This document shows, one piece after another, positions 9,290-55,142 of a DNA stretch of 64,000 nt. The position numbers and the translations under genes are program-made. How positions within the stretch are numbered: the stretch's first letter is position 1; every line of letters starts with the position of its first letter. Source of the DNA: Bradyrhizobium diazoefficiens (GTDB taxonomy: Bacteria; Pseudomonadota; Alphaproteobacteria; Rhizobiales; Xanthobacteraceae); contig NZ_JAENXS010000006.1 of the NCBI RefSeq assembly GCF_016612535.1, positions 96,544-160,543 on the forward strand. The letters run 5' to 3'. Under the pieces are notes generated by a model. That model saw only the letters and a list, made by a program, of their open reading frames with translations. It had not been told where the DNA came from and searched no databases.

Positions 9290-9309
9290 CGCCGCTACCG
9301 TGATCCATT

Positions 9310-10675: not shown

Positions 10676-10677
10676 AG

Positions 10678-11397: not shown

Positions 11398-11520
11398 GCA
11401 AGATCGGTCATTTCATTTCTGGAGGAAGCGCTGGTGACTCCGGATGCCTCTACGCCACCCTGAGATTGAGCCCTATAGCTGGTGCGCTGGGAAACCGGCA
11501 AGGGAGTAGGTGGTGGAAGT
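11398..11520. terminator. Possible transcription end after the HAD gene
   Basis: A short spacer between the HAD gene and IS110 debris. No strong hairpin with a T-run is visible, so a terminator is assumed from position only. Confidence 0.15.
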
Positions 11521-11810
11521 CTACTGCGAAGCAAGAGTAGGCGCCGCCCTTCTCTTTATCGGCACGAACCGCATGCTCGGCCGCGTCACCGCCTCGCAGA
11601 TTGCTTCTGCATCGGTCGTGTCGTTCTTACCGCGTTTGAGGAAAGCCTTCACCGCTCGGCGGCACCAGCCGGACCTCGTGCCCAAGCGCGATCTATTCGC
11701 GCACCCGATTGTGCGGAGTCGCGCGCCTCGATACTGATCAGGCGCGGAGCGAAGCGGGCTAAGCACGCCAGCAAATCGATCTATTGCGCAGAAAAGCTGA
11801 CGTCGCCGCG
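11521..11810 (-). mobile_element. IS110-family transposase fragment
   Basis: On the minus strand VKAFLKRGKNDTTDAEAICE, followed by AVTRPSMRFVPIK, is the diagnostic RuvC-like region of IS110 (DEDD) transposases. Upstream pieces in shifted frames (IALGHEVRLVPP) extend the match toward the N-terminus. The element is cut off after FVPIK by a stop and lacks the Tnp20 domain. The same N-terminal and leader region reappears in worse condition at about 25,800-26,095, in both cases next to P450 sequence. Confidence 0.8.
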
Positions 11811-27557: not shown

Positions 27558-28640
27558 TTATTTTCCTGTCGACGGCAGAGGCGTCGTCTCGGTGCGGGTG
27601 GGCAGTATCGGATACTCAACCTTGGGCAACTGCCCGGTCAGCGAATTCAGAAACGCGACAATATCGTCTTCTTCCTTATCGCCAAGCTTGGCGCCAAGCT
27701 GAACTTCGGCCATTACGCCGACAGCTTCTTTAAGGCTCCAAACCTGACCCGAATGGAAGTATGGCGGTCGCAACGCGACGTTGCGCAACGGTGCTGCACG
27801 AAAAACGTATTCGTCGCTGGCCACTTTTGTGACGGCGGACCGGCCTTTGTCGGCGGCCGGAAGCAAGCTTGTGCTTGGCTTTTCGACCGCGCCAAACGGA
27901 AAATAGTCTTGTCCGCCAACGTTGATTCCATTGTGGCAGGAGGAGCATCCTGTTTCCATGAATAGCTTCAATCCTGCTTTCTGCTGATCATTGAGAGCAT
28001 TTGGATCGCCTTCAAGGTACTGATCGAAAGGGGCTGCGGGCGTAATGAGAATCGCTTCAAAGGCTTCGATCGACTTCGCGAAATTGTCGAAAGTGACTGG
28101 CGATGCCTCGATTGGAAACGCCTTTTTGAACATGATCACATACTCGCTCATCGAGTTCAGCGTGTTGATGACATGATCTGGAGTGGCGTTCATTTCAGCA
28201 CTCGCCTGCACGGGCCCCTTTGCTTGCGCCTTGAGATCCGGCGCCCGTCCATCCCAGAACTGCGCCACATTGAAGACTGCGTTATAGACGGTTGGGGCCC
28301 GACGTGGTCCCAGCTGCCAGCCGTGTCCAACCGACGTTGGACCGGCATCGACTCCGCCTGTACCAAGATTGTGACAGGTATTGCAGCTAATGACCCCACT
28401 AGCCGACATTCGCGGATCGAAGAACAGCATTTTACCGAGTTCGACCTTCTCGTGAGTGACCGGGTTGTCCTTCACCGCAGGGACGACCGAGGGGATCGGC
28501 CTGAACGTGCGCCTGGCAGCCTTCATCAAATCATCTTCTGCATCAACGTGTGATGTGACCAGCATCGCAATGACTGCAGCACACACCTTGCGTACAAGGG
28601 GGAATTGCAGGATCACGCACTTCTTTCTAGTAAGTACCAT
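27558..28640 (-). CDS. Periplasmic dihaem cytochrome c peroxidase (CcpA/MauG family)
   Basis: A 360-residue exported protein with signal segment VCAAVIAMLVTSHVDA and two haem-c motifs, CNTCH (~86-90) and CSSCH (~233-237). The order ELGKMLFFDPRMSASGVISC, RRAPTVYNAVFN and FWDGRAPDL before the second haem, and APLRNVALRPPYFHSGQVWS after it, is the standard bacterial dihaem peroxidase layout. These enzymes reduce H2O2 in the periplasm with electrons from cytochrome c; MauG relatives oxidise partner proteins. The start is the ATG at 28,640, though an in-frame GTG 24 bases on is possible. It is transcribed toward the avidin gene with ~115 bases between them. Confidence 0.85.
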   Translation of the reverse strand: MVLTRKKCVILQFPLVRKVCAAVIAMLVTSHVDAEDDLMKAARRTFRPIPSVVPAVKDNPVTHEKVELGKMLFFDPRMSASGVISCNTCHNLGTGGVDAGPTSVGHGWQLGPRRAPTVYNAVFNVAQFWDGRAPDLKAQAKGPVQASAEMNATPDHVINTLNSMSEYVIMFKKAFPIEASPVTFDNFAKSIEAFEAILITPAAPFDQYLEGDPNALNDQQKAGLKLFMETGCSSCHNGINVGGQDYFPFGAVEKPSTSLLPAADKGRSAVTKVASDEYVFRAAPLRNVALRPPYFHSGQVWSLKEAVGVMAEVQLGAKLGDKEEDDIVAFLNSLTGQLPKVEYPILPTRTETTPLPSTGK

Positions 28641-29564
28641 CGTTGCCAGTTCTCATTGATGCTTTGGGGAATTGGAAGGCACGACGCCGCGTTCGGCTAT
28701 CCTGCATGGCGTAGTTCGGTCTCGCGAAAGCGCGTCGGGCTGGCGCTACCTCGTAGCTATTTGCGGTGCTCGATCTGACCGCGCGGCGCAGGTGGGCGCC
28801 CTTTAGACTGACTGGACCGCGCCGCGAGTTCAGCTAAGACAAATCTGACAAAGACACCTTTCTTTTGACCCACGGGTACGATTCGCGGGCACGCTCAGGT
28901 CGGCGCAATCGGCAGCCAGCTTGATCGAGGCGATTCTGTGCACACAGGTCTCCAACTTCCGACGACGTGGAGTGAGAATGGCAAGTCTTGTACCAGTTCT
29001 GGCGCGCGTGAAATCAGCGCAAAATCGCACGTTAAGAACATCGCGTCACACGATCAGAGCGATTGCGACCTATGTCCGAAATCAGACACCGCCGCTTCGA
29101 GGTAACCGGAACACGAGCTAACACCGAACGAGCCTGGCCGGGGCCGCATTTGTTCGATGCATCCTTACGAGAGCAAGGGACGTGAACGCCGCGTCCACCA
29201 GGGATACTTCCACCCGATTTACCTGGACCACGCTTGACAACGCCAAGCTACGCCGAGGGGGCGTCAATCGCGTACGCGCATCTACGTTCGGCCAAATCAA
29301 TGATCAATATCTTGCAGCTGCTGGAGGCTCGCCGCAACCGCTGCATGTTTAGGGCACGTTGCAACTACCAACGCCGCCAATTGATCCGGATGACAGTTGC
29401 ATGTCAGCTGTTGATTGGGCCGTGGGGTTGCCCGAGCGCTTTGGTCACGGGCAGCCGGAGCAGCGCGTGTTGAGAGCCCGACGAGTCGAGCGCTCATGCA
29501 AGGAGACAGCGCGCAACATCAACCACACCCGGCGGCCACGAATGTCCCTGAGCGACGCGCGGGC
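28641..29564. other. Gene-poor gap
   Basis: More than 900 bases with only short, domain-free frames on both strands. Likely decayed island DNA. Confidence 0.4.
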
Positions 29565-29770
29565 TCCCTACTTTCGCAAATGCTGCGTGCTGAGATTTGC
29601 TCCAGGAGCACCCTCTCCTTCCTGATGGAGGCTCACGATGCGCTTTCCGGTGCGATTGCCAAACGCGCAGGCTTCAAAGGCCTCTGGGCGTTAGGCCTGT
29701 CCATTGCCAGCTCCCTCGGCTACCGCGATGCCAACGAGGCTCCCTTGCACATCGTTGACGTCCTGAAACT
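29565..29770 (+). pseudogene. N-terminal fragment of phosphoenolpyruvate mutase
   Basis: The frame reads LSFLMEAHDALSGAIAKRAG then FKGLWALGLSIASSLGYRDA and NEA, the first ~60 residues of PEP mutase (AepX/PepM), which makes phosphonopyruvate, the entry step to phosphonates. The WAxGLSxSxxLGxRDxNEA signature is clear. The match stops after VVDVLK-like VDVLKLID; the DGDTGxG loop and the rest are absent. No other phosphonate gene is seen nearby. Confidence 0.65.
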
Positions 29771-29932
29771 TATCGACGAAATTGCGACGCTCGCCGTCTC
29801 TCGGGAAACGGAATGCCCTCGACCAGCACCGCAGGACGAATTCGTGCTCCTATCCGGACATACTCCTCGAATTCCGCACAGGGCCAGATCGCAACGCTAG
29901 GAACACCCGGTTTGGCTGCCGCCGAGCGAACC

Positions 29933-30945: not shown

Positions 30946-32049
30946 TCAATTTGAGCCGTTATGGCCCCCTTCCTTCCATAGCATGAATTCGATCTTTCCG
31001 GGGACATCAAGATGCTCTGGAAAGTCAGGAAACAAAATCGGACTTCCATCGCGCACAAAGGTCGCAACATCACGATCATCCGTCGCGGTATAGTTTTCTC
31101 GCCGCGCCTTTCCGCTCTTGGAGTCGAATACAAAGCGTGTCGAATTGATCCATGATGGCGAGGTGGCGTTAAGACGATCAGCTATGCGCCACACACGACT
31201 CAAGCGCACGCGGAATGCCGCGGAGAAGTTGATGGGATCTGGAATGAATATCGAGAGATTGCGTACGCCCATCTGGTCGAGCATCTCCAGGAGTTGATAG
31301 AGGACGAAATGGTGATCATTCGTGTTACGTAATAGCGGAAACTGGTTGTAGAGCCTGATCTTGCGCTCTCGAAGTTTTTTGATCTTTTCAGACACGTCCC
31401 CGCAGATTTCATATGGGTGCACGATGTGAAAGACGAGACGGATGTTATGCTTTGCAAAGAGATCAATTTTCTCGGCGGTGAAGGCTTTCGGTTCATACAC
31501 AATAGCCCTCGTATGAATTCGGATTGACTTAACGGATCGAACCGAACGGATTCCCTCAATGATTTCCGCCAGCCTGGACGTCGGCAGAATCAACGGATCA
31601 CCGCCTGACAGGATAACCTCCATGACTTCTGGGTGGTCGCCCAGATAGTCGCGCAGCAGGTGCAGATCAGCAAGTCGTCCAGCTCGTTTGTCGGGTGCAC
31701 CGATTTCTGTAAGCACGTCTGTGCGGAAGCAATATTGGCAATTCCCAAAGCATTCCGATGTGGTGAGGAAAAGTATGCGGTCAGCATACTTTCTGACGAT
31801 GGACGTTTTGTGGGTGCGGCCGAACGCATTGGACCGATCGTCGACGAAGTCCTTCACCTCGTTCGGCGCCCTCAACAACAGTCTGTCTTGCGTTGGAAAG
31901 GACACTCGGTGAAGCGGGCCCAGATGATTGCCTAACGCAGCGACCTCCTCCTTGATCTTCCTGTGATAGAACGGCGTCACCTTCAGCGGCAGCAGACCCT
32001 CTTTGATCGAGATGGTCTTGAACCTCTCGTTGACAACGGATTGATCCAT
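30946..32049 (-). CDS. Lysine 2,3-aminomutase-family radical SAM enzyme
   Basis: The 367-residue protein has the CxxxCxxC cluster (C100-FGN-C104-QY-C107-FR), the ILSGGDPLILP glycine block, FHIVHPYEI, and a C-terminal SKSGKARREN stretch whose Lys (~314) aligns with the PLP-binding Lys of KamA. These enzymes use SAM, a 4Fe-4S cluster and PLP to move an alpha-amino group to the beta carbon. Length is between EpmB (~340) and KamA (~416). No EF-P gene is near, so a small-molecule amino acid (lysine, glutamate, arginine or other) is a likelier substrate than EF-P modification. Its ATG lies one base after the permease stop, so it is translationally coupled as the last gene of the cluster. Confidence 0.85.
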   Translation of the reverse strand: MDQSVVNERFKTISIKEGLLPLKVTPFYHRKIKEEVAALGNHLGPLHRVSFPTQDRLLLRAPNEVKDFVDDRSNAFGRTHKTSIVRKYADRILFLTTSECFGNCQYCFRTDVLTEIGAPDKRAGRLADLHLLRDYLGDHPEVMEVILSGGDPLILPTSRLAEIIEGIRSVRSVKSIRIHTRAIVYEPKAFTAEKIDLFAKHNIRLVFHIVHPYEICGDVSEKIKKLRERKIRLYNQFPLLRNTNDHHFVLYQLLEMLDQMGVRNLSIFIPDPINFSAAFRVRLSRVWRIADRLNATSPSWINSTRFVFDSKSGKARRENYTATDDRDVATFVRDGSPILFPDFPEHLDVPGKIEFMLWKEGGHNGSN

Positions 32050-32050
32050 A

Positions 32051-33304
32051 TCAGGTCAACTCCGTTCGATTGTTGCGGCTCAAGACGTATGCAAGGATGG
32101 CACTCGATGCGATAAAGGGGTGAGAAGACCTGAAGCCGGCGATGATCAGGACAGAGCAAATCACAATCGGAGTAGCGAGCAACCACGATACCAGCCCTCC
32201 CCGAAGCCTCACGAGTGCAAGCGCCGAAATCATGTAAATGAAAAGAAGATTCATTCCAGCAAGACTGAACATCGTTTCGATGTCGAGCCACCCAATCAGG
32301 TCGCAGGCCAGAACCAATAGCAAGCATCCAACCACGAAATAGACACCGGTCCGGGGTGCACCATTGTGCAAGCGCCCGAGGCAGGCCGGAAGGACGTGTC
32401 GTCCGGAGAGGTACAGAACGAGCCGTGAGATCGCGACAACTGACCCGAAGAGGTTCGCGGCGATCAACGATATGCCTAGCAGGGGAACCAGCCAGCCTGG
32501 TGCGGATGGTGCAAGTTCGGCCGCCGCCTGAAAGACTGGCGCACTGAAATTCGATTTTATATCAGCGACATGGACGAGCGCTGCGCTGCAAATGTAGACT
32601 CCACAGACAACAACAAAGGCCAACAGCATCGCCAGACCAAAATCCCTTTTGGGATTGCGAAAGTCTGCAGCTAGATGGGTCGCAATCTCCCAACCGCTGA
32701 AGGAGAAGAAGATCACGGGAATCTGGCTCGCAATGGACAATAGGTTTGCGGGTCGATCGAACTGAACACCCTTGGCCCGCACTGCCAGCACCATGAGGGC
32801 GAACAGGGTGCCTACCAAAAAACAGACTGACCAACTGCCGATGAGCTTCACGCCACGATGGAGTGCCTCGCCACCGGACAGGGCAAAGACGCCAGCCAGT
32901 AGGATGAGCAACGCGGCAAGCAGATGGACGTCGACACTGGGGCCTGTTAGCTTCTGGAGGTAGACAGCCCCCGCCAGCGTGATGGATGGCAAGCCCACCA
33001 TCGTCGCTCCCAGAAACAGCAATGACACCAGCAATTCCAGGTATTGGCCAAAAGCCAGCTTGGCATAGTATGCAACACCTCCGGAACTGGGATATGCGCC
33101 CCCTAACAGGACCATCGTCGCCAGGATCGGCGCAGAGAGCAAGGCGCAGGCGAACCACACATAGATGCCGTCCTGGCCAATGTTTTCGAACACAAATCCT
33201 GGAAGGACAAGGATCCCGGATCCAATGATGACTGTGACGATCAGTAAAATCCCGGAGGCAAGCCCCAGATGTCCCTCGAGTTTGCTCTCGCTTCCATATT
33301 TCAC
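32051..33304 (-). CDS. APC-family amino-acid permease
   Basis: A 417-residue membrane protein with about twelve hydrophobic segments. The first carries GIGSGI-like IIGSGILVLPG, the unwound TM1 substrate motif of the amino-acid/polyamine/organocation superfamily; FSFSGWEIATHLAADFRNPKRDFG marks TM6-loop of the same family (about residues 197-220). It should exchange or import an amino acid or related amine. The start is GTG 33,304 with gagg five bases upstream. Directly coupled to the aminomutase gene, so it may move the substrate or the beta-amino acid product; exporter or antiporter function is equally possible. Confidence 0.85.
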   Translation of the reverse strand: MKYGSESKLEGHLGLASGILLIVTVIIGSGILVLPGFVFENIGQDGIYVWFACALLSAPILATMVLLGGAYPSSGGVAYYAKLAFGQYLELLVSLLFLGATMVGLPSITLAGAVYLQKLTGPSVDVHLLAALLILLAGVFALSGGEALHRGVKLIGSWSVCFLVGTLFALMVLAVRAKGVQFDRPANLLSIASQIPVIFFSFSGWEIATHLAADFRNPKRDFGLAMLLAFVVVCGVYICSAALVHVADIKSNFSAPVFQAAAELAPSAPGWLVPLLGISLIAANLFGSVVAISRLVLYLSGRHVLPACLGRLHNGAPRTGVYFVVGCLLLVLACDLIGWLDIETMFSLAGMNLLFIYMISALALVRLRGGLVSWLLATPIVICSVLIIAGFRSSHPFIASSAILAYVLSRNNRTELT

Positions 33305-33505
33305 GCTGACCTCGCATGAGCTTCCCGCAATAGCCGGCCATACGATCTGTCAATCGCCGGGCTAACGAGAGGGGTAAGCCAATCTACAAAACCTATGCTG
33401 TCATCGACGCCGCCGCTGAGTTCGCCATTGGCGAGCCACGGTCCTGCACATTCAAGGCTCAGGGTTCAAGCGGCAAGAACGGCCACGCCGCTGATGTACT
33501 GACCG
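33305..33505 (-). other. Spacer between YqcI/YcgG gene and permease
   Basis: About 200 bases. A plus-strand frame (33,384-33,513) reads YAVIDAAAEFAIGEPRSCTF and ends at a TGA but has no known domain. Coordinates span 33,305-33,505. Confidence 0.25.
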
Positions 33506-34252
33506 TCACTTGAAGTGCAGAGGGCACTCGAGCGGGGCGTCCTCGTTGTTGTCGGGTATCATGTACTGCTGCCACTGCGCTTCGCCCAGAACGTACGATC
33601 CCAGCAGCCCGCTGTGTGCAACGTCATCGTAGGTGTCGATGTTCTGTCTGATCTTTGCCGTGATGGCGCTGCCTTGTTGATTGGCAGGTGCAGCAATGTC
33701 GAAGATCTTTCGTGGATTGATAATGAAAGCCAGCCCGGCGCCCATGTTTCTGCTTCTGCGGAGAACATGCGCTGGATGGCTTACATTCACGAAGAGTTCG
33801 CAGCCGTGAAAGCACATCGTCCAGGTGCGGTGCGCGGGATCCTTGGACACAAGCGAAGGCCACGGTCGCTGATCTTCATCGAGTAGAAACTGCATCGCTT
33901 CGATGAATATATGCTTGAATTGATCCGTGGTCGTGAGGGTCACGACCGGCTCAAACAGCACCAGGAGCGAACGGTTGTGGTTGACGTCGAGCGTGTCGAT
34001 ATTGATCTGATCAATGTAGGTGCGTAAGCCGGAAGCAAGAAGCCCAAGCTCATACCGCGAATTTTTGGGTTCGTATGGAATCAGGAGGAAACGCAAATTG
34101 CCGCGCTTGACCGTGTTGCGCGCGAAAACGCAAGGAAATGCGGTGCGGGGGCCTGCTTCATTTTCGAATTTCGAAAGGATGTGCGAAATCGCTGATTGGC
34201 CCCAGCGGAACTTATCAGGGAGCCCAGCAAGTTCGTCCTGACTGAATAGCAT
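33506..34252 (-). CDS. YqcI/YcgG-family protein
   Basis: The 248-residue protein matches the YqcI/YcgG family: FPCVFARNTVKRGNLRFLLI near the N-terminus (residues ~30-50), a central HRTWTMCFHGCELFVNVSHP-like block and a C-terminal GSYVLGEAQWQQYMIPDNNE. Members are compact soluble proteins; some family members act as haem-dependent or non-haem oxygenases or tailoring enzymes on amino acids, but a role for this one is not established. The start follows gaggggag. Located mid-cluster between a methyltransferase and an amino-acid permease, which fits a tailoring step on an amino-acid-derived compound. Confidence 0.75.
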   Translation of the reverse strand: MLFSQDELAGLPDKFRWGQSAISHILSKFENEAGPRTAFPCVFARNTVKRGNLRFLLIPYEPKNSRYELGLLASGLRTYIDQINIDTLDVNHNRSLLVLFEPVVTLTTTDQFKHIFIEAMQFLLDEDQRPWPSLVSKDPAHRTWTMCFHGCELFVNVSHPAHVLRRSRNMGAGLAFIINPRKIFDIAAPANQQGSAITAKIRQNIDTYDDVAHSGLLGSYVLGEAQWQQYMIPDNNEDAPLECPLHFK

Positions 34253-34834
34253 GTTTTCTCCCCTCATTTGTGCATTAGGCGCGTGTGTGCGATTGCCCGA
34301 GCCCTCCGCGCGCCACCAACCGCTTCTGCAGCGAGCGATTTCATAACCTGTCGCAGCATGTCGGCTCACCGCTCGATTGGACATATCAACGGCGTGAACC
34401 ATCGATCACATGATGACTGTGCGCAATGTCCGCGTCGGCTCGGGAAAGCGCGGCTTTCGCTCAGTGATCGCTGCGCGGCGAACCTGATCATGGCATCTCC
34501 TGTCGTTGGCGCAGGCGTTTGTGGCTAGTCGTGCATGTGTCGTGCCAACGGGGACTCAACACGATCAATCTGAGAGCGATGGGTCTCATGTCCGACATCG
34601 TCGGAGATCCGACAATGCGTGCAAGCGTAAGCGAGAGCTCCGAGAGCTCGGATCGGCGAGCATCCTTCGGACGCGGGCCTATGGGCGAATTCGCTGATGG
34701 AGAAGGATGTACGATATGGCTTCAAGCAAACCGCGACGGCACGCGATGGGTCCCAACATGATGGCTCCTTCCGGCATCGGTCGCGATTCGATCCATGCAG
34801 ACGTCGATCGAAAAGCTCGATCATGAGAGAACCA
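34253..34834. other. Gap inside the minus-strand cluster
   Basis: About 580 bases between the methyltransferase end and the YqcI/YcgG start. Short frames only; a second promoter could lie here, or a gene may have been lost. Confidence 0.35.
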
Positions 34835-35522
34835 TCAAATCCGCATCCACGGAGCAGATTTGGGCGCTCGGAGTGCGATCCAATCAGGATCCGACCACGA
34901 CCGCTCCACTTCGAAGCTGAACAAAGGGATCAGATAGTCCCGGATGATGATCGTGACGTGAGGTTCGTGGGCCTCATCCTCGGTCAATTGCCTGCTTTCA
35001 TCGGCATCCGCATATTGAGCCGTCGACTGGACCAAATGTCTCTTTCCGAAGCAAAGCCTCACGTCGTCGAAAAGGAATAGGGCGCCGGGCCTCAACAGCC
35101 GCACTGCTGCAAAGGCAGCCGCCAGATCGACATAGATCGAATGGCTCCCGTCGAGATAGATGACGTCGAAAGTCTCTCGACTTCGCGCCAACCTGATCAG
35201 GTTGAAAAGGTATGTTCCTGACGCATTTCCCAGAAAGGTGATGTTTCGATCGGCGATGCCCGGCCGCCGCCAGATCGGCCCGGCGTTCCGCGCAAACATG
35301 TTCGAAGTCCAAGCCGACATACTGGATGCCGAGCTCATTGATAGCCCTGAACCGCTCCTGCCTTAACGTCGGTCGTACACCGATCTCGAGAAAGCGGCAC
35401 CCCGGATGCTGCCGAAGCAACTGGACCAGCCGAGCATGAACCGAGTGCCTGTACGCCCGATAGTTGCTGGGGAGCGGATGGCCGCCGTCAAATAGGACAT
35501 CGTGACGGTCACCATCCATCAT
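34835..35522 (-). pseudogene. Class I methyltransferase with one frameshift
   Basis: The N-terminal part, from ATG 35,522 or 35,519, reads LVQLLRQHPGCRFLEIGVRP and IQYVGLDFEHV; the C-terminal part, in another frame, reads ITFLGNASGTYLF, FDVIYLDGSHSIYVDLAAAF and LRPGALFLFDDVR. Joined near 35,258 they give ~228 residues of the Methyltransf_24-like type (LEIG, GLD, YLDGSHSY, GGxxxxDD). So the gene is one base away from intact. It may be truly broken, a sequencing error in the gatgcccggccgccgcc tract, or recoded. It would supply SAM-dependent methylation in the cluster. Confidence 0.7.
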
Positions 35523-35680
35523 TCGTCTCGCAGTTGGTCGGAACATACATCTGACATGCCGTACGCACGGCCAAGAGCCCCACCTTCCCGGCCACGACCA
35601 ACGATGGCTAATATCGGCCGTTTCCGGCAAACACTGCAAGACAGAGTGCCGAGGGCGCGCTGAAGCCAAAGCGGCGACAT

Positions 35681-37072
35681 TCATGCCGGCACTTTGCTGA
35701 GGTCGCCTAATGGGGTCGCTTGATTTCGCTTCGCTCCATCCGTCGTGAGCGCCGCCAAATAGTGAGCAAAGAGCGATATCGTTCGGGTGTGCGAATCAAG
35801 GGAACTCTTGTCGCTCCGTCCCGCCAGCCAATCGTCAAACAGCCTTTTGCGGCCAGCGCCGAGATCAGCGTTTCGGACAAGCGTGTCCCGCGCGGGATAA
35901 GTCCGTTCGCGTAAAACTACGCCTCCGAGGAAGCCGGCATTCCGCCATACCGTGATGTGCGCCTCCCTTCGCAGTTGCGGATGACCTTCCACGCTTAACT
36001 GTGGGCGCTTGAAGATCCTGGCCTCGATCGCTGCGAAGGGACCGATATTCAAGCGAATGGTCTCGGACCCGTACCGTCCGTTCTTGTTGTAAATATCGGC
36101 CGGCAGTTGCCGCCAATTGCGCAACGACACGCTGGTCTGCAGAAGGTCGAGGCGAAACAGGCAGACGGTCTCGCGGCTTCCGGGACGCCTTGCGGCTCCA
36201 GACGAGACAATATCCGTCTCACCCCAGAACGGTGGCGCCGGAAACTGTGCAGCGCCTGGCGCATCGCCACGAAGCCTGCGGACCGCATCCGGGCCAACCT
36301 GCCCGACCTGGTCGGCGGCGGTCGCCCGGTGGACATCAAGCTCGACCGCCAGCCTCCCGAAGTGGTCCTCATTGTGAGCCAGCAGACCGGAGAGAATATC
36401 GATGTAGTGATAACCGGAATGGCAAAGCATTCCGTAGCCGTAGCGGTAAGGATGGTCCTCCCGGGAGAGGATCTCCTCCTCCGTGTTCCAGACTCCCGCG
36501 TGATGCTCGACACCGATGTAGGTGACCGGCGTGCCGAGGTTTCGGGAGGCGCGGCGCGCATAGCGTCCAATTAATTCATACACTGCGTTGTAGCGGCGCG
36601 GCGTCATGACCACGCAACGGCCGCCAGTCCGATCGCAGATTTCCTTGAGCTCGGCTACCGCATCAACGAGACGGTCCGCTGTAGGGCGTCCATTCGACCC
36701 CATCGGAAGAACGACGGGCTTGTCGACCAGGCAATCAAGGCCAAGTCCAAGAGCCGCGCGAAGGTAGCCCAAATGAGCCTTGGGTTCGGTCGAGACGATG
36801 ACTTTTGCGCCGGGACGTGCAAGAGCCGTCAGGACGTCCTCCCCATGGCCGGAATACCAGATCGCCCGTCGCCGGAGATCGGGTACCCATGAGAGGCCCG
36901 CCGGCTTGCAAATGCGGGTCCGGAAAAAGGCATCCACATCGTCTCGCGCACTGTCGAGCTCGACGACATGGAAGGCCGATGCTCGACCGCTGGCCACGGC
37001 ATCCTCGATCAGAGGAATATATTTCGCCCGGGCATAAGCACCGAGCCCGACGAGAATGATATCTCCTCGCAT
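35681..37072 (-). CDS. Gfo/Idh/MocA-family oxidoreductase
   Basis: The 463-residue protein has an N-terminal Rossmann domain (IILVGLGAYARAKYIPLIED), the VIVSTEPKAHLGYLRAALGL then DCLVDKPVVLP block with the conserved Lys of the E/D-K-P motif, and HSGYHYIDI supplying the His/Asp pair of the second domain. These NAD(P)-dependent enzymes oxidise or reduce sugars, cyclitols and amino-acid-like alcohols. At 463 residues it is longer than typical (330-400). ATG 37,072 is preferred because it begins directly before the Rossmann strand; an upstream frame to 37,249 would add 59 unlikely residues overlapping the next gene. Second gene of the cluster. Confidence 0.8.
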   Translation of the reverse strand: MRGDIILVGLGAYARAKYIPLIEDAVASGRASAFHVVELDSARDDVDAFFRTRICKPAGLSWVPDLRRRAIWYSGHGEDVLTALARPGAKVIVSTEPKAHLGYLRAALGLGLDCLVDKPVVLPMGSNGRPTADRLVDAVAELKEICDRTGGRCVVMTPRRYNAVYELIGRYARRASRNLGTPVTYIGVEHHAGVWNTEEEILSREDHPYRYGYGMLCHSGYHYIDILSGLLAHNEDHFGRLAVELDVHRATAADQVGQVGPDAVRRLRGDAPGAAQFPAPPFWGETDIVSSGAARRPGSRETVCLFRLDLLQTSVSLRNWRQLPADIYNKNGRYGSETIRLNIGPFAAIEARIFKRPQLSVEGHPQLRREAHITVWRNAGFLGGVVLRERTYPARDTLVRNADLGAGRKRLFDDWLAGRSDKSSLDSHTRTISLFAHYLAALTTDGAKRNQATPLGDLSKVPA

Positions 37073-37229
37073 GCCTTCTGATACTCTCTCACTTTTCTCA
37101 ATCAGAACTTCGGATGCGATGAGGGCAGACACTTGGTCGACCTGACGGATGCTGATAGGGTGAGATACTGCCTCCTCGCACGCCGAGAACCGCCGATATG
37201 GAGACGCCTTGAGTCCATCGATCGCTACG

Positions 37230-38258
37230 TCATGCGCAGGCGAGCGCACGGTTCTCGATATTCTTCAGGAGGGCGACCTGGCTCGGGCATTGGCCGCAGC
37301 CGCTGTTCGCCCGAAATTTCTTCAGAGCCGGCGAGGTACGCCAAACCTTCTCCAGGTCGAATTCCGGCGATCGGATATTGCCGAGGAGGAACTCGCGGCT
37401 ATCGGGATCCCCGACGACGAAGGAACAGGGATACAAATCGCCGTTTGTAGAGAGGTAGACCGCGGTGGCACCACAGTCGCATTCGGTATATCTGACGTTT
37501 GGCCGCGGCTGCGAGGTATCGACGAAAATCGGCGGCGGCAGTTCAAGTTGCGCAGAGCTGGGCTGCGCAGCAATCTCCATCAGGGCTTCTTGCAGCTCTC
37601 GAATTTCGTCAGCCGATCCCAAGAGCGCATCCTCATTGCCGAGGGCAACGCCCGAGGCGAACATCGGCTTGACCCTGAAGGAGTAGACGCCGATTGACGA
37701 CAGGAGCCGGTAGGCGTCAAGCGCCTCACCGATGTTGTGCCGGTTGGCAGTCATCCTGGCCTGCACCAAGGCCCCGCAATTGGCCGCCTCAGCCATCTGC
37801 CGGAGCGCAGAATCGTAAACCCCCGCCTTGCCCCGGAAGCGGTCCACCGTGTTTCGCTTCGCACCGTCAAAACTGAACTGGAACGTCAGCTTCTCGCGAT
37901 CGTCAAAGAACGAGGCGACGTCACAAATTGGCACTTGGCCGAGACCCCCTGTATTCAGCTGGACGTGAAGCCCCCGCTTGTTTGCACGGGCCATCACGGC
38001 TGCCGTGCGAGGAAACACGTGCTTGAGAAGCGGCTCGCCACCCGTCAATGAGACTTTTCTCAGCGAATACTTGTCGACGAGAAGGTCCACGAACTCCTTC
38101 ATCTCCTCGATGGATAGTTGTGATGGCTCCAAAAGCCGCTTGTATTGATCCCGATACTCTTCGGGAACATAGCAGTGCTCGCAATGAAGATTGCAGTAGA
38201 AGGACACACAAATTCTCGCGTGGTTGAAGACAATGGGTAGTGGATGGTCGCTTGGCAT
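37230..38258 (-). CDS. Radical SAM protein with SPASM-like C-terminal Cys domain
   Basis: A 342-residue protein with the SAM-binding cluster C22-NLH-C26-EH-C29, the KVSLTGGEPLL glycine motif (~68-78) and a C-terminal Cys set (C260, C262, C278, C321, C324, C341) around YLSTNGDLYPCSF and SGCGQCPSQ, the pattern of SPASM auxiliary-cluster domains. Such proteins modify peptides or small molecules by radical chemistry. No precursor peptide is evident next to it. The ATG at 38,258 has gggagg five bases upstream. First gene of the six-gene minus-strand cluster. Confidence 0.85.
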   Translation of the reverse strand: MPSDHPLPIVFNHARICVSFYCNLHCEHCYVPEEYRDQYKRLLEPSQLSIEEMKEFVDLLVDKYSLRKVSLTGGEPLLKHVFPRTAAVMARANKRGLHVQLNTGGLGQVPICDVASFFDDREKLTFQFSFDGAKRNTVDRFRGKAGVYDSALRQMAEAANCGALVQARMTANRHNIGEALDAYRLLSSIGVYSFRVKPMFASGVALGNEDALLGSADEIRELQEALMEIAAQPSSAQLELPPPIFVDTSQPRPNVRYTECDCGATAVYLSTNGDLYPCSFVVGDPDSREFLLGNIRSPEFDLEKVWRTSPALKKFRANSGCGQCPSQVALLKNIENRALACA

Positions 38259-39135
38259 GGCATCCTCCCGGCTTTCTGCCAGAAAGGTTGCAGCAGGATT
38301 TATGCCAGTGCGACGCGCCGAATCGCTGACGACTTTGATGGTGCAATGTCGCATTCAAAACAGCTTGGCGGATTCGCGACATCAGGCGTGTTTGGTTTGA
38401 GACAGACGCACGCGCACGCTCCCCAGTCACCAAGCGGGTCTACAAACTTCCAACAGCGCGCCCGGCTCCATCGGCGTTTTCAGCCGCGGCATTGGCAGCG
38501 ATGAGCAATTCATGTCCTACCCAATAAAAGTCGCCTCATCCGTCCCACCGACCACAACGCGTCGATGAGCAGAGCGCGGTCAGCGAGCGCCAATTACGGG
38601 AACAGCTCTTCTTGCGCGTTACGGAGCAGCGACTTCTGACACTTCCTACTAGTGGGGGAAGCCGGCGTAACCAGAACGAGTTGTCGCGTAACACCCGTTC
38701 GATTTCTCTCGGGATTAGCGAAGCCCGTTAAGCCCGTCACGGCGTGCAAGAGACGATGTCGGACGCGCGTTCGTAAACCACGCCTCGCATCGGCTTCGCG
38801 AGTGGCACACCGATTGCTGAAACGAAGAAGCCGCCGGCAATACGGTGGGTCGATTCCGAAGTTGCCAATGAAGCTAGCCCGATGACTCCTGATGTTTGCG
38901 CCGACGAGACAATGTCGACGTTGGCGCTACCTTCGTCAAGCGGCTCGCTGTCGCTTGCAAACAGCAACGGACCACGACGCGTTTGCTGCAGGTCGGCGCC
39001 AAGCGGACCGTTCTAACGAGAGGCAGATATTGGCGCGTTGCAACCCAACGATCCTGTGCCGCCGACGTTTGAGCCATATGGATCCGGCAGAGGTTCGCTG
39101 AGATGCATACCATCGAGCTTAGAAGGATGATGATC
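38259..39135. other. Cluster promoter side and gene-poor gap
   Basis: About 880 bases. The left end should hold the promoter of the radical SAM cluster. I looked for a small precursor-peptide ORF upstream of the radical SAM gene and saw none with a ribosome-binding site. The rest has short frames without domains. Confidence 0.35.
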
Positions 39136-40615: not shown

Positions 40616-43060
40616 TTATGACGAAACTTTCTTTGATTTTGCGAGCTCCGCGTCCGATAGCATCTGGGTGCCGATGATGCCCTCCTTTGCCAAGTGACCG
40701 ATCTCGGTGTCGGAGAGCTCGAGAAGCCCTGATAGGATCTCTTTATTATGTTGTCCCAGCGTCGGTGCCGCTGTGCGGATCGCATATGGCCGCGCACCTT
40801 CACGAATCGGTATCGAGGGTTGCGGATGCGGGCCAATGAAAGCGCGTTCGACTTCATGCAGAAATGCACGGGACTTGAGATGTGGATCGTTGAGCAGGTC
40901 AATTGGCAGGTGAGCCACGCCGGCGGCGACCCTTGTGGCCTGCAACTCGGACATCGCCAGATCCGCATTCCGGCTGAGCGTCCAGGCTTCGATAGCTCTC
41001 TCGATCAGATCCTCGATCCCGCGGCGGGCTTCCGCGGATTTCAGCGATGTGTCTGTGGCCCAGTCTGGCCGGCCGATCAGAACGGCGAGTCGCTGCCACA
41101 TGTCGTCATCGGTCGCGGCTACCATGATCCAGTTGTCCACACCCACACACCGGAAGCAGCCGTGCGGCACAAACTGAGGATGTCGATTGCCGTATCTTGT
41201 CGGCGGCAGACCGCCGATCGACTGAACGGTGATCCATGGCGCCGCGAAGGGCATCATGCATTCGATCTGCGCCAAATCGATGAACTGCCCCTGACCACTG
41301 CTGCGGGCGTGAATCAACGCGACCAGAACCGCGGCGCAGCCGTTGAGCCCACCGACCGGATCTCCGAAGGCAGTGTGGCTCATAACGGGTGGCCCACCGG
41401 GGATTCCGACTACGCCCGGCAATCCCGATGCCTGTTCGAGAGTCGATCCGTACGCCCGGCAATCGCGATGGACGCTGTTCGAACCAAAGGCTGACATCGA
41501 CATCATGACGATGCGAGGATTGAGCGCTTTGAGAACGTCGTAACCAAGCCCGAGCCTTCGCAGGACATCGACGGAAAAATTGTCAGCGACAATATCAGCT
41601 CGCGCCAACAGCCGTTTGGCGAGAGCGAGACCTTGCGGCCGCGTCAGGTCGAGTGTGATACCGCGCTTGTTGCGATTCATGATACAGAAGCGCACCGCCT
41701 TTTCGTACATTTGACCGTCAACGTAAGCAGCCCGCCTGTCAACGCCGCGCCACCAATCTGGATATTGTATGGCCTCGATCTTGATTACATCTGCACCGAG
41801 ATCAGCCAGCGTGCGCGTACACAATGGCCCCGCCCAGCCCATCGTGAAGTCGATTACTTGAATCCCAGCCAAAGGCTGCCTGCGGGGATCGGCACAGCCA
41901 GATGAACCCGCCGCATTGAAGGACGGATTTGTTCGGTTCCTTGCGAAAGCCTGCTGCTCGCCGGGAGCCGGAACCTTGCCGCCTCGACGAGGGCCCGTCA
42001 ATGTCAGGCGCTGCATCGAACCAACAGTTAAGCCCTCTTCTTCGCCAAGCAACACGGGCACAATCGCGCCACGCGCGCTTTTCTCGGTGTCGAGTAGCAA
42101 ATCAGATATTTCGGGTACTGGCACGATCGGAATCTTCCGTTGCAGTCCCTCTACAAACCACTCCTGCGCCGTCCGGGCTTTAAGCTTCGGCAGAAACTGT
42201 CTTTCGATCTCGTCCACGTATGGCAGACGATCTGCACCGAGGACCAGACCCGGATCATCACGTAACTCCGATAAACCGAGCATATCGCAGAATGATCGCC
42301 ATTGCGCAGGCGTTAACGTTGTAACTCCGAGCCATCCTTTTTTGGTTTCGTAAATGCCGGCCGGAAACATCGGCCAGAAGCGGTTAATGCCGATCCGGCG
42401 TGTCATTTCGTCTCGAACATGGGCTTCGAACATGTGATTCTCGCTGAGAGCGAGGTTCGCTTCAAAAATGCTGACCGACCACGATCGCCCTGCCCCACCC
42501 TGCGTCCGAGCAACAATCGAAGAAGCCACGGCTATGAAAGCCCAGAGGCCTGCAAGGATGCCCGTCTGGAAATCCGGAGCGTACAACGGCGGCCCCTCAA
42601 CCGGACCGACCAGCTTGATGAGCCCGGCTAGCGCACGTACCGTCGAATCAGTTGCCGCGAATCCTGCATAGGGCCCGCGGCTGCCGAACCAGCTCGCTTC
42701 GATGTAGATCAAGCTGGGACGACGTTGCCGGATGGTGGCGACATTAATGGACTGGCAATCTGCGGGATCGACATCGCGACCGTCGATCAGAATGTCACAG
42801 CTTTCAAGTAATGCCATCAACCTCGTCATCGCGTGTTGGTCGGCCGGATCGATGATAACGCTTGACTTGTTGAAGTTCAGGAAAGCAAACCACGCGCTTT
42901 GGCCCCCCGGCGTCAGTGGCGCGGCGCGGCGAAGTGGGTCCCCTGGGGGCGGCTCGATTTTCTGAACATCGGCGCCAAAATCGGCAAACAACCGTGCGCA
43001 ATAGCTTGTTGTGGCCGAGCTTCCGATCTCAACGACTCGCAGACCTGAAAACACTCCCAT
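40616..43060 (-). CDS. Tandem CaiB/BaiF (family III) CoA-transferase
   Basis: The 814-residue protein is two family III CoA-transferase domains in one chain. The first opens with LRVVEIGSSATTSYCARLFADFGADVQKIEPP (residues ~7-38) and the second with IQVIDFTMGWAGPLCTRTLADLGADVIKIE (~407-436); the second has NRNKRGITLDLTRPQG and HTAFGDPVGGLNG with the expected catalytic Asp, while the first has LYAPDFQTGILAG. These enzymes move CoA between acyl groups through a mixed anhydride and glutamyl/aspartyl-CoA. Fused double-domain forms occur but are less common than single ~400-residue ones. Start supported by ggag six bases upstream. No partner gene nearby; substrate unknown. Confidence 0.85.
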   Translation of the reverse strand: MGVFSGLRVVEIGSSATTSYCARLFADFGADVQKIEPPPGDPLRRAAPLTPGGQSAWFAFLNFNKSSVIIDPADQHAMTRLMALLESCDILIDGRDVDPADCQSINVATIRQRRPSLIYIEASWFGSRGPYAGFAATDSTVRALAGLIKLVGPVEGPPLYAPDFQTGILAGLWAFIAVASSIVARTQGGAGRSWSVSIFEANLALSENHMFEAHVRDEMTRRIGINRFWPMFPAGIYETKKGWLGVTTLTPAQWRSFCDMLGLSELRDDPGLVLGADRLPYVDEIERQFLPKLKARTAQEWFVEGLQRKIPIVPVPEISDLLLDTEKSARGAIVPVLLGEEEGLTVGSMQRLTLTGPRRGGKVPAPGEQQAFARNRTNPSFNAAGSSGCADPRRQPLAGIQVIDFTMGWAGPLCTRTLADLGADVIKIEAIQYPDWWRGVDRRAAYVDGQMYEKAVRFCIMNRNKRGITLDLTRPQGLALAKRLLARADIVADNFSVDVLRRLGLGYDVLKALNPRIVMMSMSAFGSNSVHRDCRAYGSTLEQASGLPGVVGIPGGPPVMSHTAFGDPVGGLNGCAAVLVALIHARSSGQGQFIDLAQIECMMPFAAPWITVQSIGGLPPTRYGNRHPQFVPHGCFRCVGVDNWIMVAATDDDMWQRLAVLIGRPDWATDTSLKSAEARRGIEDLIERAIEAWTLSRNADLAMSELQATRVAAGVAHLPIDLLNDPHLKSRAFLHEVERAFIGPHPQPSIPIREGARPYAIRTAAPTLGQHNKEILSGLLELSDTEIGHLAKEGIIGTQMLSDAELAKSKKVSS

Positions 43061-44219: not shown

Positions 44220-45509
44220 TTATCTGACGGAACGGGCCGGTCCTTCTGGGGGGGCGGCGGTCGTGTCACTCATTCCCAAGATGCAGTCGCACAACCGCTC
44301 TATATCGCGGGTCTCATGATCGGCCGTAATACACACTCGGATCCCCGCCCTTCCCTGCGCAACGGTGGGGAAGAACGTCACCGACGTATAGAACCCAGCA
44401 TCGAGAAGCTCTCTTGCGATTGCAATCGCCTTGGCTTCTGATCCTGTTGCGATCATTCTGATCGGAAGTGAATTGCCTTGCTCTGCAGTTAAGACGCGAC
44501 GGTCAAAGAGCTCGATGCGTTGCGTCAACCGCCTCTGCCGCTGACCGAGTTCTTCCGAACGGTGAATCTTGCACGAGCCAAGTGCCGCTCCAACTGCCGC
44601 TAGATTGGGAGGTACCGAGAATGCGTAGGGGACGGAATACCGTCGAAACAGAGCCTCCTGGTCGGGCGTCCCGAGCATCAACATGCCGCCTGATGCGCCG
44701 AACCCCTTGCCCAGTGAGGCTGCTATGATCGTCCGGTCACCGAGCCGGTGCGGAAACTGGGAGCGAGCAAATCCTTCACCGTGCCGTCCAAATAGCGATG
44801 TGCCATGTGCATCGTCGATGTAAAGAAAGAGGCCATAGCGCTCCTGAAGTTGATGCAGTTCGTTGATCGGCGAATGGCCTCCCATGGAGTACACTCCATC
44901 GCATACATAGGCGACCACCGGCTCCTGGCGGCACAGGCGTTCGAGAGCGTCAATGTCGTTGTGCGCAATCGTTTCCACCCGTGTTTCATCAGCGACCACG
45001 GGCTTGTGATAGGCGAGCGAGACGTGCGCAATGCGATCGAACACAACGACTGGTTTCCTTCCGCCCGTTAGTTGGCCAGATGCAAGGAGGGGCATTGCGC
45101 CTAAATTGGCGAGCATGACTGTGGAATAGGTAAGCACGCGCGCGCAGAACATATCTGACAGCGTTGCTTCAAGCTCTGCGAGGAGGTCGAAATTGAGTCG
45201 CGTTCGCGCGCAGGACCAGTGCAATGATCGATGCGCCTCTATCGCCTCTATCGCGCCAGCGACGATCACGGGATGGTTGTCGAGGCCCAAGTAAGAGCAT
45301 CGCACGAAATCAATCACCTGCGGTCGACTTTCAAGCGAGCCGGAACCCAAAGCAAAAGCCCGTCCGATCGTTGAGCGTCCATGGATACCCATGAGGCCGG
45401 CCGCATGGGCCGCATCGAAATACCTCCTGCTCTCCTCGATCACGTAGGCGGTGTTACGAAAATGTCCGGTCGGCCGACCACCTCTAGAGAGCACATCTTG
45501 TTGCTGCAT
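44220..45509 (-). CDS. Alpha-oxoamine synthase-family PLP enzyme (BioF/CqsA-like)
   Basis: The 429-residue fold-type I PLP enzyme joins an acyl-CoA to an amino acid with decarboxylation. Family marks: FVRCSYLGLDNHPVI, TYSTVMLANLG, VCDGVYSMGGHSP, the Asp/His pair in IDDAHGTSLFG, and the PLP lysine in SLGKGFGASGG. It lacks the bio, hemA or kbl context that would name it and reads closer to the BioF/KBL/CqsA side than to ALA synthase. ATG 45,509 is preferred for the ggaga six bases upstream, over 45,521. Products of such orphan enzymes include alpha-amino ketones used as signals or sphingoid-like bases; which applies here is unknown. Confidence 0.8.
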   Translation of the reverse strand: MQQQDVLSRGGRPTGHFRNTAYVIEESRRYFDAAHAAGLMGIHGRSTIGRAFALGSGSLESRPQVIDFVRCSYLGLDNHPVIVAGAIEAIEAHRSLHWSCARTRLNFDLLAELEATLSDMFCARVLTYSTVMLANLGAMPLLASGQLTGGRKPVVVFDRIAHVSLAYHKPVVADETRVETIAHNDIDALERLCRQEPVVAYVCDGVYSMGGHSPINELHQLQERYGLFLYIDDAHGTSLFGRHGEGFARSQFPHRLGDRTIIAASLGKGFGASGGMLMLGTPDQEALFRRYSVPYAFSVPPNLAAVGAALGSCKIHRSEELGQRQRRLTQRIELFDRRVLTAEQGNSLPIRMIATGSEAKAIAIARELLDAGFYTSVTFFPTVAQGRAGIRVCITADHETRDIERLCDCILGMSDTTAAPPEGPARSVR

Positions 45510-45987
45510 TACATTCTCCATTCCATCTGCGAACCCGTCGCCTTCGATAAGCGCGGCGCAATGGGCGGTCTAACGAAATCGGCGGAACTTGAGATGCCGC
45601 GCGAGGCATTCCGGGCAGCTCGGTCGTCTGCTCCGGCCACCAAACCACTACCGACGCCACTTGTGCAGCTACCAAGTCAGATGGGTTGGCTAGATCGAAG
45701 CGCCGCGCAATGTAGGAGGTGATAAGGAACGATCGCGCACTGGCCAGAGGCCGGTGTGGCAAATGTCTTCGCCATGATGTTGAAGTGACGGGCTGTAGCG
45801 GCCTTACTCCACCCCTCGAACCACAAAAACAACTTGGCACCTCGACCCTTCAGCGTCATGGGCATTCTTGTGGGTGTCTGTTCGGTTCTCCGCGACTCGC
45901 TCATGTTCGGCGAGTTCAGATTTCTCGGCTAGGACAGAATGGACAACAGCAATGCGGCTCAAATTCTCAAAATTGAGGAGTCTCTTT
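45510..45987. other. Composition boundary gap
   Basis: About 480 bases of low-information sequence. At its right edge composition shifts sharply to the high-GC, C/G-ending codons of the acyl-CoA dehydrogenase gene, suggesting a junction. Confidence 0.35.
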
Positions 45988-54386: not shown

Positions 54387-55142
54387 TCAGCCCGGCTTGC
54401 CTCCGCCGACGCGCAGATAGGCGCCGGCGACGTAACTGGCCTGATCGGATAGAAGCCATGCGATCGCCTCTCCGATCTCCTCGGGTTCAGCGACGCGGCC
54501 GATTGGAATCCCGGTCGCGGCAGCTTCGAGCACGGCGACATCGGGCATCCCGGTGCGGGTCGCGCCGGGGCTCACCGTGTTGACGCGGATGCCTTCGCCC
54601 GCGAGCTCCTGGGCTAGACCGAGCGTCAAGCAATTGAGTGCGGCCTTCGAGACGGCATAGTGGATCTCGACATTGGGAGCGCCGCTTGTGGACAGCCCCG
54701 ACGAGACGTTGACGATGCCGCCCCCCTCCCCGCCGTTCTGCAACGACATGCGCGGGATCGCTTCGCGGATGCAGGCCATCGCGCCGAAGAGGTTGACGTC
54801 AAAGACCCGCCGGACCACAGCATCGGGAACGTCGACGTAGCGGCCGCGCATGCCGACGAGTCCAGCGCAGTTCACCAGTCCGCGCAGTCGCCCCAGTTCG
54901 GCGTCGCAGCGCGCGAACAGTTCCGCGACGGCGCCCGCATCGGTCACGTCGGCCTTGATCGCGGTCGCCCGCCCGCCTGACGCAACGATTCCTGCGACGA
55001 GGGCATGGGCCGCGTCGTCGGCAGCGACGTAGTTCACCGCGACCGCCCAGCCGCGCTGCGCAAGCAGACGGGAGGCGGCCGCGCCGATCCCCCTGCTGCC
55101 TCCGGTCACGATTGCAACAGCGCGGCTTGCATCCGCAGTCAT
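54387..55142 (-). CDS. Short-chain dehydrogenase/reductase
   Basis: A 251-residue classical SDR: AIVTGGSRGIGAAASRLLAQ is the TGxxxGxG nucleotide loop, LVNCAG the NNAG-like motif, VNVSSG supplies the catalytic Ser region and YAVSKAA the YxxxK pair. The closing LLSDQASYVAGAYLRVGGGK is typical of FabG-like enzymes. It reduces or oxidises a hydroxyl/carbonyl with NAD(P). Its ATG overlaps the TGA of the binding-protein gene (ATGA), so it is co-translated as the third gene of the MmgE/PrpD operon. Confidence 0.88.
   Translation of the reverse strand: MTADASRAVAIVTGGSRGIGAAASRLLAQRGWAVAVNYVAADDAAHALVAGIVASGGRATAIKADVTDAGAVAELFARCDAELGRLRGLVNCAGLVGMRGRYVDVPDAVVRRVFDVNLFGAMACIREAIPRMSLQNGGEGGGIVNVSSGLSTSGAPNVEIHYAVSKAALNCLTLGLAQELAGEGIRVNTVSPGATRTGMPDVAVLEAAATGIPIGRVAEPEEIGEAIAWLLSDQASYVAGAYLRVGGGKPG

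Follow-up and report, generated by a model that had tools for sequence, protein, structure and literature searches.

The six consecutive genes at positions 30946 to 38258 of the window (the 64,000-nucleotide stretch of Bradyrhizobium diazoefficiens analyzed here, from contig NZ_JAENXS010000006.1) are two neighboring clusters, arranged head to tail within a symbiosis region. Module B, which consists of genes for a YqcI/YcgG-family protein (YqcI), an APC permease (APC) and an aminomutase-like protein (KamA), is a conserved operon, and module A is a separate Bradyrhizobium cluster that includes genes for a radical S-adenosylmethionine (SAM)/SPASM protein (SPASM), a Gfo/Idh/MocA-like oxidoreductase (Gfo) and a methyltransferase. 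The initial annotation correctly gave the positions and shared strand (minus) of all six genes, the one-base spacing of APC and KamA (APC end 32051, KamA start 32049) and the island setting (nodA lies on the same contig, ~109 kb from KamA), and it read the six genes as one pathway, which is contradicted by their distribution in other genomes.

With moderate confidence, and on the evidence of sequence comparisons, module B is regarded as a NifA-switched mobile symbiosis operon whose products would form a beta-amino acid, probably of the beta-lysine type, N-oxygenate a basic amino acid and provide transport through the permease. Its features in the window are as follows (PLP, pyridoxal phosphate).

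30946..32049, minus strand: KamA-type radical SAM/PLP amino-acid 2,3-aminomutase, 367 aa (PF04055 and residues)
32051..33304, minus strand: APC-superfamily amino-acid permease, 417 aa (PF13520)
33506..34252, minus strand: predicted YqcI/YcgG-family heme-thiolate N-oxygenase, 248 aa (PF08892, AglA residues, ribosome-binding site)
34532..34548, minus strand: putative sigma54 -24/-12 promoter of the trio, TTGGCACGACACATGCA
34582..34597, minus strand: putative NifA upstream activator site 2, TGTCGGACATGAGACC, one mismatch, L017 counterpart exact
34599..34614, minus strand: putative NifA upstream activator site 1, TGTCGGATCTCCGACG, one mismatch to TGT-N10-ACA, L017 counterpart exact

Module B as a unit and its separation from module A

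Loci for comparison were drawn from a KamA scan of genome contigs, which yielded six loci, from a family search of 391 genomes, and from a plasmid search in which four of 131 records carried KamA at 60-80% identity, three of these four being fetched; L004 and L019 are on the same contig. The order YqcI-APC-KamA is kept in 11 loci (the window, L002, L003, L004, L005, L016, L017, L018, L022, L023 and L024), which span Bradyrhizobium, Mesorhizobium and Rhizobium etli. Eight of these, compared over stretches of 14-25 kb, contain no match to SPASM, Gfo or the methyltransferase, which are matched in the window, L016 and L017.

A search for Gfo across the genus gave matches in 21 of 265 genomes, a count that includes G826 and G912, in which the match is only 31% identical and is not an orthologue. 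Within the Gfo neighborhoods of 20 genomes (G841 excluded), SPASM, whole or in pieces, adjoins Gfo in 16, pieces of the methyltransferase do so in 11 and KamA in 3. Because G781 and G863 are cut off by contig ends on the far side, and G785 retains less than 3 kb there, all 21 genomes were searched whole; KamA is matched at E 1e-40 in five of them (G000, G302, G269, G281 and G829), with no match in the other 16. The trio adjoins Gfo in G000, G302 and G269, while in G281 KamA lies ~100 kb from Gfo, itself in two pieces, and in G829 a C-terminal piece of KamA (residues 220-367) is on a different contig from Gfo. Beside the methyltransferase of G829 there is, however, a start piece of YqcI with its upstream DNA (L056), which implies that the modules met in more than one lineage or that their meeting is older. 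A six-gene unit was rejected, given this separate occurrence of the modules in other genomes. The neighborhood comparison of KamA and YqcI across relatives that the initial annotation had proposed thus finds the trio kept together and no conserved six-gene block; homologues in unrelated neighborhoods, which it had named as evidence against its proposal, are found for the six-gene set and not for the trio. L017 (G269) has the methyltransferase/YqcI stretch twice at a distance of ~6 kb, and APC and KamA are missing from the first copy.

Linkage of KamA and YqcI was also approximated by matches on identically sized contigs (41 YqcI matches and the best 120 of 860 KamA matches). Among the matches listed, 13 of the 25 KamA proteins of at least 60% identity share a contig with YqcI by this proxy, compared with 0 of 95 below 60%; the proxy covers just the longest contig per cluster, and the other 12 of the 25 could be either linked or unlinked. 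An uncultured Rhodoferax accounts for one of the shared contigs, which means that the pair is not confined to rhizobia, and the B. yuanmingense tags AOQ72_02725 and AOQ72_02735 fit KamA and YqcI, respectively, with a single gene in between.

The pairwise distances of the three trio proteins correlate over the 11 loci (r = 0.906, 0.850 and 0.929; 0 of 2000 permutations as high). The ratio of nonsynonymous to synonymous substitution rates (dN/dS) is 0.09-0.22 in all pairs with dS above 0.5 that gave a value, and 0.11-0.68 in closer pairs, which are based on few changes. This analysis leaves out APC of L018, L023 and L024 and KamA of L016; the KamA pair of the window and L023 gave no value, and the YqcI ratio for L002-L003 (0.53) is meaningless, the L003 stretch being 48 bases long.

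On plasmids of Sinorhizobium and Rhizobium, KamA relatives of ~54% identity are found with a LysE-family gene, and relatives of ~50% identity lie behind a WD40-type protein in other Hyphomicrobiales (L109, L110 and L116 of 20 matches, with Pfam applied to one). The two-gene KamA-LysE unit (L025-L027, ~9965-11723) has annotations for 1-aminocyclopropane-1-carboxylate (ACC) deaminase and argB nearby in L025 and L027. In L020 (~9269-10219), a KamA relative (56%) whose match is interrupted by five stop codons lies beside an APC fragment, perhaps a decayed copy of an operon of the YqcI-APC-KamA type. From the patchy distribution and the plasmid copies, we infer that module B moves horizontally.

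Putative sigma54 promoter and NifA-type sites

Upstream of YqcI, -24/-12 elements were scored against TGGCACG-N4-TTGC over 11 fixed positions, with GG-N10-GC required; the RpoN consensus in Mesorhizobium loti R7A is TGGCACG-N4-TTGCW (PMC3538637). The best scores are 11 in L023 and L024, 10 in the window, L002, L003, L004, L016, L017 and L018, 9 in L005 and 5 in L022. A score of at least 9 in 10 of the 11 trio loci compares with 35-54 per 1000 shuffles of one 700-bp stretch, the shuffles preserving base composition only, and with a background in the window of 0.10 sites per 700 bp at a score of at least 9 and 0.022 at a score of at least 10. The trio loci represent about six lineages, each with a -24/-12 site in at least one member, and none of six control KamA loci without YqcI (three with LysE, two of them near-identical, and three with WD40) has a site scoring at least 9.

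Exact copies of the NifA activator motif, TGT-N10-ACA, lie 51-89 bp before the -24 element in four of the 11 loci (L002, L005, L017 and L018), compared with 7-31 per 1000 shuffles. Sites with one mismatch are found in the window, L003, L004, L016 and L024, and none in L022 and L023. In the M. loti R7A study the activator is printed as TGT-N10-AGA (PMC3538637).

The window promoter is identical at 16 of 17 bases to that of msi158, which encodes an OmpW-family porin of M. loti R7A (TTGGCACGACACATGCG, Table 1 of PMC3538637). An msi158 lacZ fusion gave 1281.7 Miller units in wild-type bacteroids and 5.5 in a nifA2 mutant, and a fully effective symbiosis needs msi158 (PMC3538637). These promoter sequences suggest that the trio is apparently under NifA control in nodules. 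Most NifA2-regulated genes beyond nif/fix are dispensable for fixation (PMC3538637), and deletion of the trio may therefore give no plant phenotype. Nod-box control of the trio was rejected, as just isolated ATC-N9-GAT matches are present, in the window and L018 and at differing places, and no tts-type match is present in the eight upstream stretches scanned.

In Rhizobium leguminosarum UPM791, RLV_1884 (375 aa, annotated as lysine 2,3-aminomutase) is among the top 50 proteins by spectral counts in pea bacteroids and was not detected in vegetative cells (PMC7950203). By size alone, L084 (374 aa) is at least as close to it as KamA (367 aa), and RLV_1884 can be taken as a bacteroid-expression precedent for the aminomutase family, not for the KamA of the window.

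Predicted active sites of KamA and YqcI

KamA matches PF04055 with 32.4 bits, and its best NCBIfam model is TIGR00238, ‘KamA family' (152 bits, cut-off 199.2). In general, KamA/EpmB/AblA-like models (152, 145.3 and 129.1 bits) score above TIGR04468 (116.5 bits); the score against TIGR03820, the lysine AblA equivalog, is 113.2 bits, short of the cut-off of 525.4, and KamA is consequently not filed as a lysine 2,3-aminomutase (LAM). KamA does align with the LAM of PDB 2a5h (E 1.4e-21), such that the cysteines of the radical SAM motif CxxxCxxC (C100/C104/C107) correspond to LAM C125/C129/C132, and R109, D271 and D309 match LAM R134, D293 and D330; GGDP is also present. The PLP lysine is K314 (SGK), which a multiple alignment places with AblA GGGGK and BlsG IGK, and in a pairwise HMMER alignment LAM K337 lands on KamA R316, two residues past K314. 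In LAM, D293 and D330 hold the lysine side-chain amine; in the single annotated BlsG included in the alignment, Thr takes the D330 position, and a rhizobial ‘lysine 2,3-aminomutase' (L084) is without both aspartates. The residues of KamA thus weakly favor lysine as its substrate.

YqcI matches PF08892 with 155.8 bits (cut-off 27). Its open reading frame (ORF) is overlong at the 5' end, with the start at 34252 (248 aa) behind aggggag; residue numbers here follow the 298-aa ORF. In a match to AglA structures (PDB 9ub3, E 6.4e-20), C91 aligns with the AglA heme ligand C44, and F204, R218, R231, F234, R252 and Q279 correspond to AglA F152, R166, R179, F182, R200 and Q228, respectively. The roles of the AglA residues, including the Phe152/Arg179/Phe182 guanidine clamp, have been described, and the six characterized YqcI/YcgG enzymes are reported to hydroxylate arginine derivatives (PMC12866846). 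Of the AglA heme-carboxylate contacts, R166 and R200 are kept (R218 and R252) and K196 is replaced by T; Q177 is replaced by N, and the phosphonate-side residues G187, S221, T222 and K225 are not kept. Against the GntA model NF041366, YqcI scores 40.2 bits, below the cut-off of 145. YqcI is therefore likely to be a thiolate-heme N-oxygenase with a substrate other than that of AglA. The permease matches PF13520 with 73 bits.

Module A and its surroundings

Module A (alpha-oxoamine synthase - (short-chain dehydrogenase/reductase, SDR) - coenzyme A (CoA)-transferase - SPASM - Gfo/Idh/MocA - methyltransferase) would represent a different Bradyrhizobium pathway, the product of which, at a guess, arises from condensation of an acyl-CoA with an amino acid followed by reduction, oxidation and methylation. 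Its features in the window, followed by those nearby, are listed below (PEP, phosphoenolpyruvate).

34835..35522, minus strand: class I methyltransferase (PF13578), frameshifted remnant
35681..37072, minus strand: Gfo/Idh/MocA-like oxidoreductase, ~463 aa
37230..38258, minus strand: radical SAM/SPASM enzyme, 342 aa
38293..38307, minus strand: putative weak -24/-12 element of module A, TGGCATAAATCCTGC
38347..38362, minus strand: putative NifA site upstream of SPASM, TGTTTTGAATGCGACA
40616..43060, minus strand: double-domain class III (CaiB-type) CoA-transferase (PF02515 in two stretches; adjoins in relatives)
44220..45521, minus strand: alpha-oxoamine synthase-like PLP enzyme (NF005697 and bioF-type matches; PDB 8xha, 293.6 bits)
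27558-28640, minus strand: MauG-like di-heme protein
29493..29798, plus strand: PEP mutase fragment, ~103 aa
39103-39390, plus strand: orf95, 95-aa protein without family match

The gene order in G328 runs alpha-oxoamine synthase, 248-aa ORF, SDR, double CoA-transferase, SPASM, Gfo and methyltransferase, and the alpha-oxoamine synthase and CoA-transferase are upstream in the window, G328, G873, G863, G834 and G781. In the window, module A is partly eroded: the methyltransferase is frameshifted, with its N-terminal and C-terminal parts in two different frames (it is in a single frame in three of the nine loci compared, G347, G785 and G879), no SDR is present between the alpha-oxoamine synthase and the CoA-transferase (the sole match, 36%, at 54408-55118, is 10 kb off), and the nearby PEP mutase is just a fragment.

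The SPASM protein matches PF04055 (43.3 bits) and PF13186 (30.7 bits). The Gfo ORF of 522 aa is overlong at the 5' end; relatives have ~463 aa, with a start near 37072, and with this shortening the overlap with SPASM disappears. The Gfo protein of the window has no Pfam match of its own, and its class is weakly based (PF01408 in 2 of 28 homologues, one source's name and a YhhX stretch at E 0.011). The families given in the initial annotation are thus borne out by profile matches for SPASM, YqcI_YcgG, APC and KamA, less securely for Gfo, and the methyltransferase is broken; the frameshift, the wider SPASM/Gfo cluster and the sigma54/NifA-type promoter had been missed. Assignment of SPASM as a maturase of ribosomally synthesized and post-translationally modified peptides (RiPPs) was not adopted, its PDB sequence matches being mixed (5wgg, cytosylglucuronate decarboxylase 7vob, SkfB 6efn and MoaA). 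Among the 25 of 63 NCBIfam matches listed, no model reached its cut-off, and no search was aimed at precursors, orf95 included.

Upstream of SPASM, TGT-N10-ACA is kept in 8 of 9 aligned loci, as is GG-N10-GC, ~55 bp apart. The window's -24/-12 element matches 8 of the 11 positions, a score that occurs by chance at 0.39 per 700 bp. Both modules may be nodule-expressed without being one pathway.

orf95, upstream of SPASM on the opposite strand, is also found in G328, G873, G834, G785, G829 and G347, where in G328, G873 and G834 it is between CoA-transferase and SPASM; in G863 it precedes the alpha-oxoamine synthase, and the window's genome has one copy. Five relatives (G328, G873, G302, G834 and G269) also have the MauG-like gene close to module A.

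The PEP mutase of G328 scores 329.7 bits, above the cut-off of 319.55. Together with a nucleotidyltransferase, PEP mutase is found on the opposite strand near module A in G328, G873, G834 and G347, with an aminotransferase close to it in G873 (PF00155) and, by eye, in G834 and G347, and a cytidine diphosphate (CDP)-alcohol phosphatidyltransferase in G834; these genes form a possible phosphonolipid cluster in related Bradyrhizobium. Apparently intact PEP mutase regions are L054 14475-16498, L075 954-3563 and L079 9541-13870. PEP mutase was considered as a possible member of module A. Its distance to Gfo is at most ~20 kb in G328, G873, G834 and G347, as well as in G380, where it is fragmentary, and it is distant from Gfo or on another contig in G304, G820 and G879; it is also present at 70% identity or more, near full length, in 13 of 42 genomes without Gfo. 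In M. loti, pepM is nodule-expressed and nifA2-dependent (PMC3538637).

A PEP-mutase remnant beside the trio is found in the window, L016 and L017 only, and PEP mutase, aminotransferase and nucleotidyltransferase have no match at E 1e-3 in L002-L005, L018 and L022-L024; in G281, PEP mutase is ~46 kb from KamA. A link between the trio and phosphonates, considered in view of AglA in argolaphos and the nearby remnant, was taken as coincidence.

Proposed function of module B and alternatives

Module B would be self-contained and transcribed from its own sigma54 promoter, with NifA turning it on in nitrogen-fixing nodules. KamA, with [4Fe-4S]/SAM and PLP, would act on a basic amino acid, most likely L-lysine, and shift its amino group from carbon 2 to carbon 3, and YqcI, as a cysteinate-heme monooxygenase fed by housekeeping reductases, would hydroxylate a nitrogen of a basic amino acid: the guanidine, as in characterized relatives, or, should the KamA product be its substrate, the terminal amine. 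Export or exchange of the product would then fall to the permease. The stand-alone small-molecule route with amino-acid enzymes and a permease envisaged in the initial annotation appears right as far as the trio's predicted families go. That bacteroids use a mobile operon of the nif regulon to make an N-hydroxylated beta-amino acid, and move it to the plant cell or to neighbors, is a tentative proposal.

Several observations weigh against a NifA-switched symbiosis operon. The trio is rare: of 391 genomes of the family, 7 have a KamA match at E 1e-60 or better, and 5 of these carry the trio. nodA is not found in the genome of L002 and is only partially matched in that of L004. In L003 (B. macuxiense, ~7816-8563), YqcI is truncated from the conserved start, a 228-aa ORF beginning further in. 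The M. huakuii locus L022 is without the promoter, and an IS1380 transposase is annotated ~360 bp upstream of its YqcI. In the window and L016 there are two NifA-type sites each, every one with a mismatch, and such one-mismatch sites occur in 27-43% of shuffles, so that they count solely through their likeness to the exact pair of L017; the exact sites in 4 of 11 loci are all the firm evidence for upstream activator sites. The R. etli loci, with perfect -24/-12 elements, have either no activator site (L023) or one with a mismatch at 42 bp (L024). The nifA2 dependence of msi158 favors NifA control, and this gain is offset by the weak one-mismatch sites and the cut contigs. Of the NCBIfam models that KamA matches, it reaches the cut-off of none, and the substrate cues conflict, with KamA residues pointing to lysine and YqcI relatives to guanidines. 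Finally, under NifA (low O2), a heme enzyme that depends on O2 is an awkward companion for a radical SAM enzyme that is sensitive to it.

The conflict over substrate bears on an arginine route, in which KamA would make beta-arginine, as BlsG does, or would convert the N-hydroxyarginine formed by YqcI to N-hydroxy-beta-arginine. It is in keeping with the guanidine-clamp residues of YqcI and with the action of characterized YqcI/YcgG enzymes on arginine derivatives (PMC12866846), but KamA keeps both lysine-amine aspartates, including the one replaced by Thr in the aligned BlsG, and KamA/EpmB/AblA-like models outscore TIGR04468, although lysine AblA (113.2) and TIGR04468 (116.5) score about alike; this route is considered unlikely. 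A more doubtful alternative casts the permease as an importer within a nodule catabolic or osmolyte route, in which YqcI and KamA act on different substrates and no product is exported. APC permeases transport in both directions, and ~54% identical KamA relatives pair with a LysE-family gene instead, so that APC may work either way; against an importer, no recurring catabolic neighbor is seen, by eye, in seven trio loci (L002-L005 and L022-L024).

A single pathway of all six genes is highly improbable, even though the window and two close Bradyrhizobium (L016 and L017) share gene order and strand, NifA/sigma54-like elements precede both modules, and G829 has the start piece of YqcI in the same place beside the methyltransferase, with its C-terminal KamA piece elsewhere. 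It is opposed by the 8 of 11 trio loci without the module A genes, the 16 of 21 Gfo genomes without a KamA match, the ~100 kb between Gfo and KamA in G281 and the broken methyltransferase of the window. In practical terms, the six genes should not be sought or assayed as a single pathway.

The symbiosis islands of rhizobia contain many accessory genes whose nodule products remain mysterious. As a unit of three genes with a promoter of the nif type and two enzymes whose chemistry is known, the trio is small enough for direct testing and could tie a specific metabolite to symbiosis. If the proposed NifA-switched operon is real, there would be a class of nodule metabolites that unites aminomutase with heme-thiolate N-oxygenase chemistry, spread over Bradyrhizobium, Mesorhizobium and Rhizobium symbiosis regions, and the aminomutase and YqcI families would be placed in a shared pathway absent from the literature found.

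Comparison with known systems

Compared with LAM (KamA/AblA; PDB 2a5h) and EpmB, the KamA of the window has the same radical SAM triad, GGDP, PLP lysine and both substrate aspartates, but a shorter PLP loop and scores below the NCBIfam cut-offs. Plasmid proteins annotated as AblA or lysine-2,3-aminomutase-like share ~26-30% identity with it, and whereas AblA in L083 adjoins a beta-lysine acetyltransferase, the predicted partner here is a heme N-oxygenase. YqcI shares with AglA, GntA and DcsA the PF08892 family, the heme Cys, two of three heme-carboxylate contacts and the Phe/Arg clamp, but differs from AglA in lacking K196, Q177 and the phosphonate-side residues and so probably has a different substrate. 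The guanitoxin and argolaphos clusters likewise use a YqcI/YcgG N-hydroxylase (PMC12866846); in contrast to module B, they are not known to include KamA, no search having been aimed at these clusters.

The closest regulatory parallel is the NifA-RpoN regulon of the M. loti R7A symbiosis island, with its near-identical msi158 promoter (PMC3538637). This NifA2 regulon also includes acdS (ACC deaminase) and an L-lysine 6-monooxygenase (msi280), and it differs in that the YqcI-APC-KamA operon is not among the entries seen (PMC3538637). No account of such an operon was found in the literature covered, which excludes most subscription papers. Both the enzyme families and the regulon are known, and what is new is their combination as a mobile, apparently nif-controlled operon.

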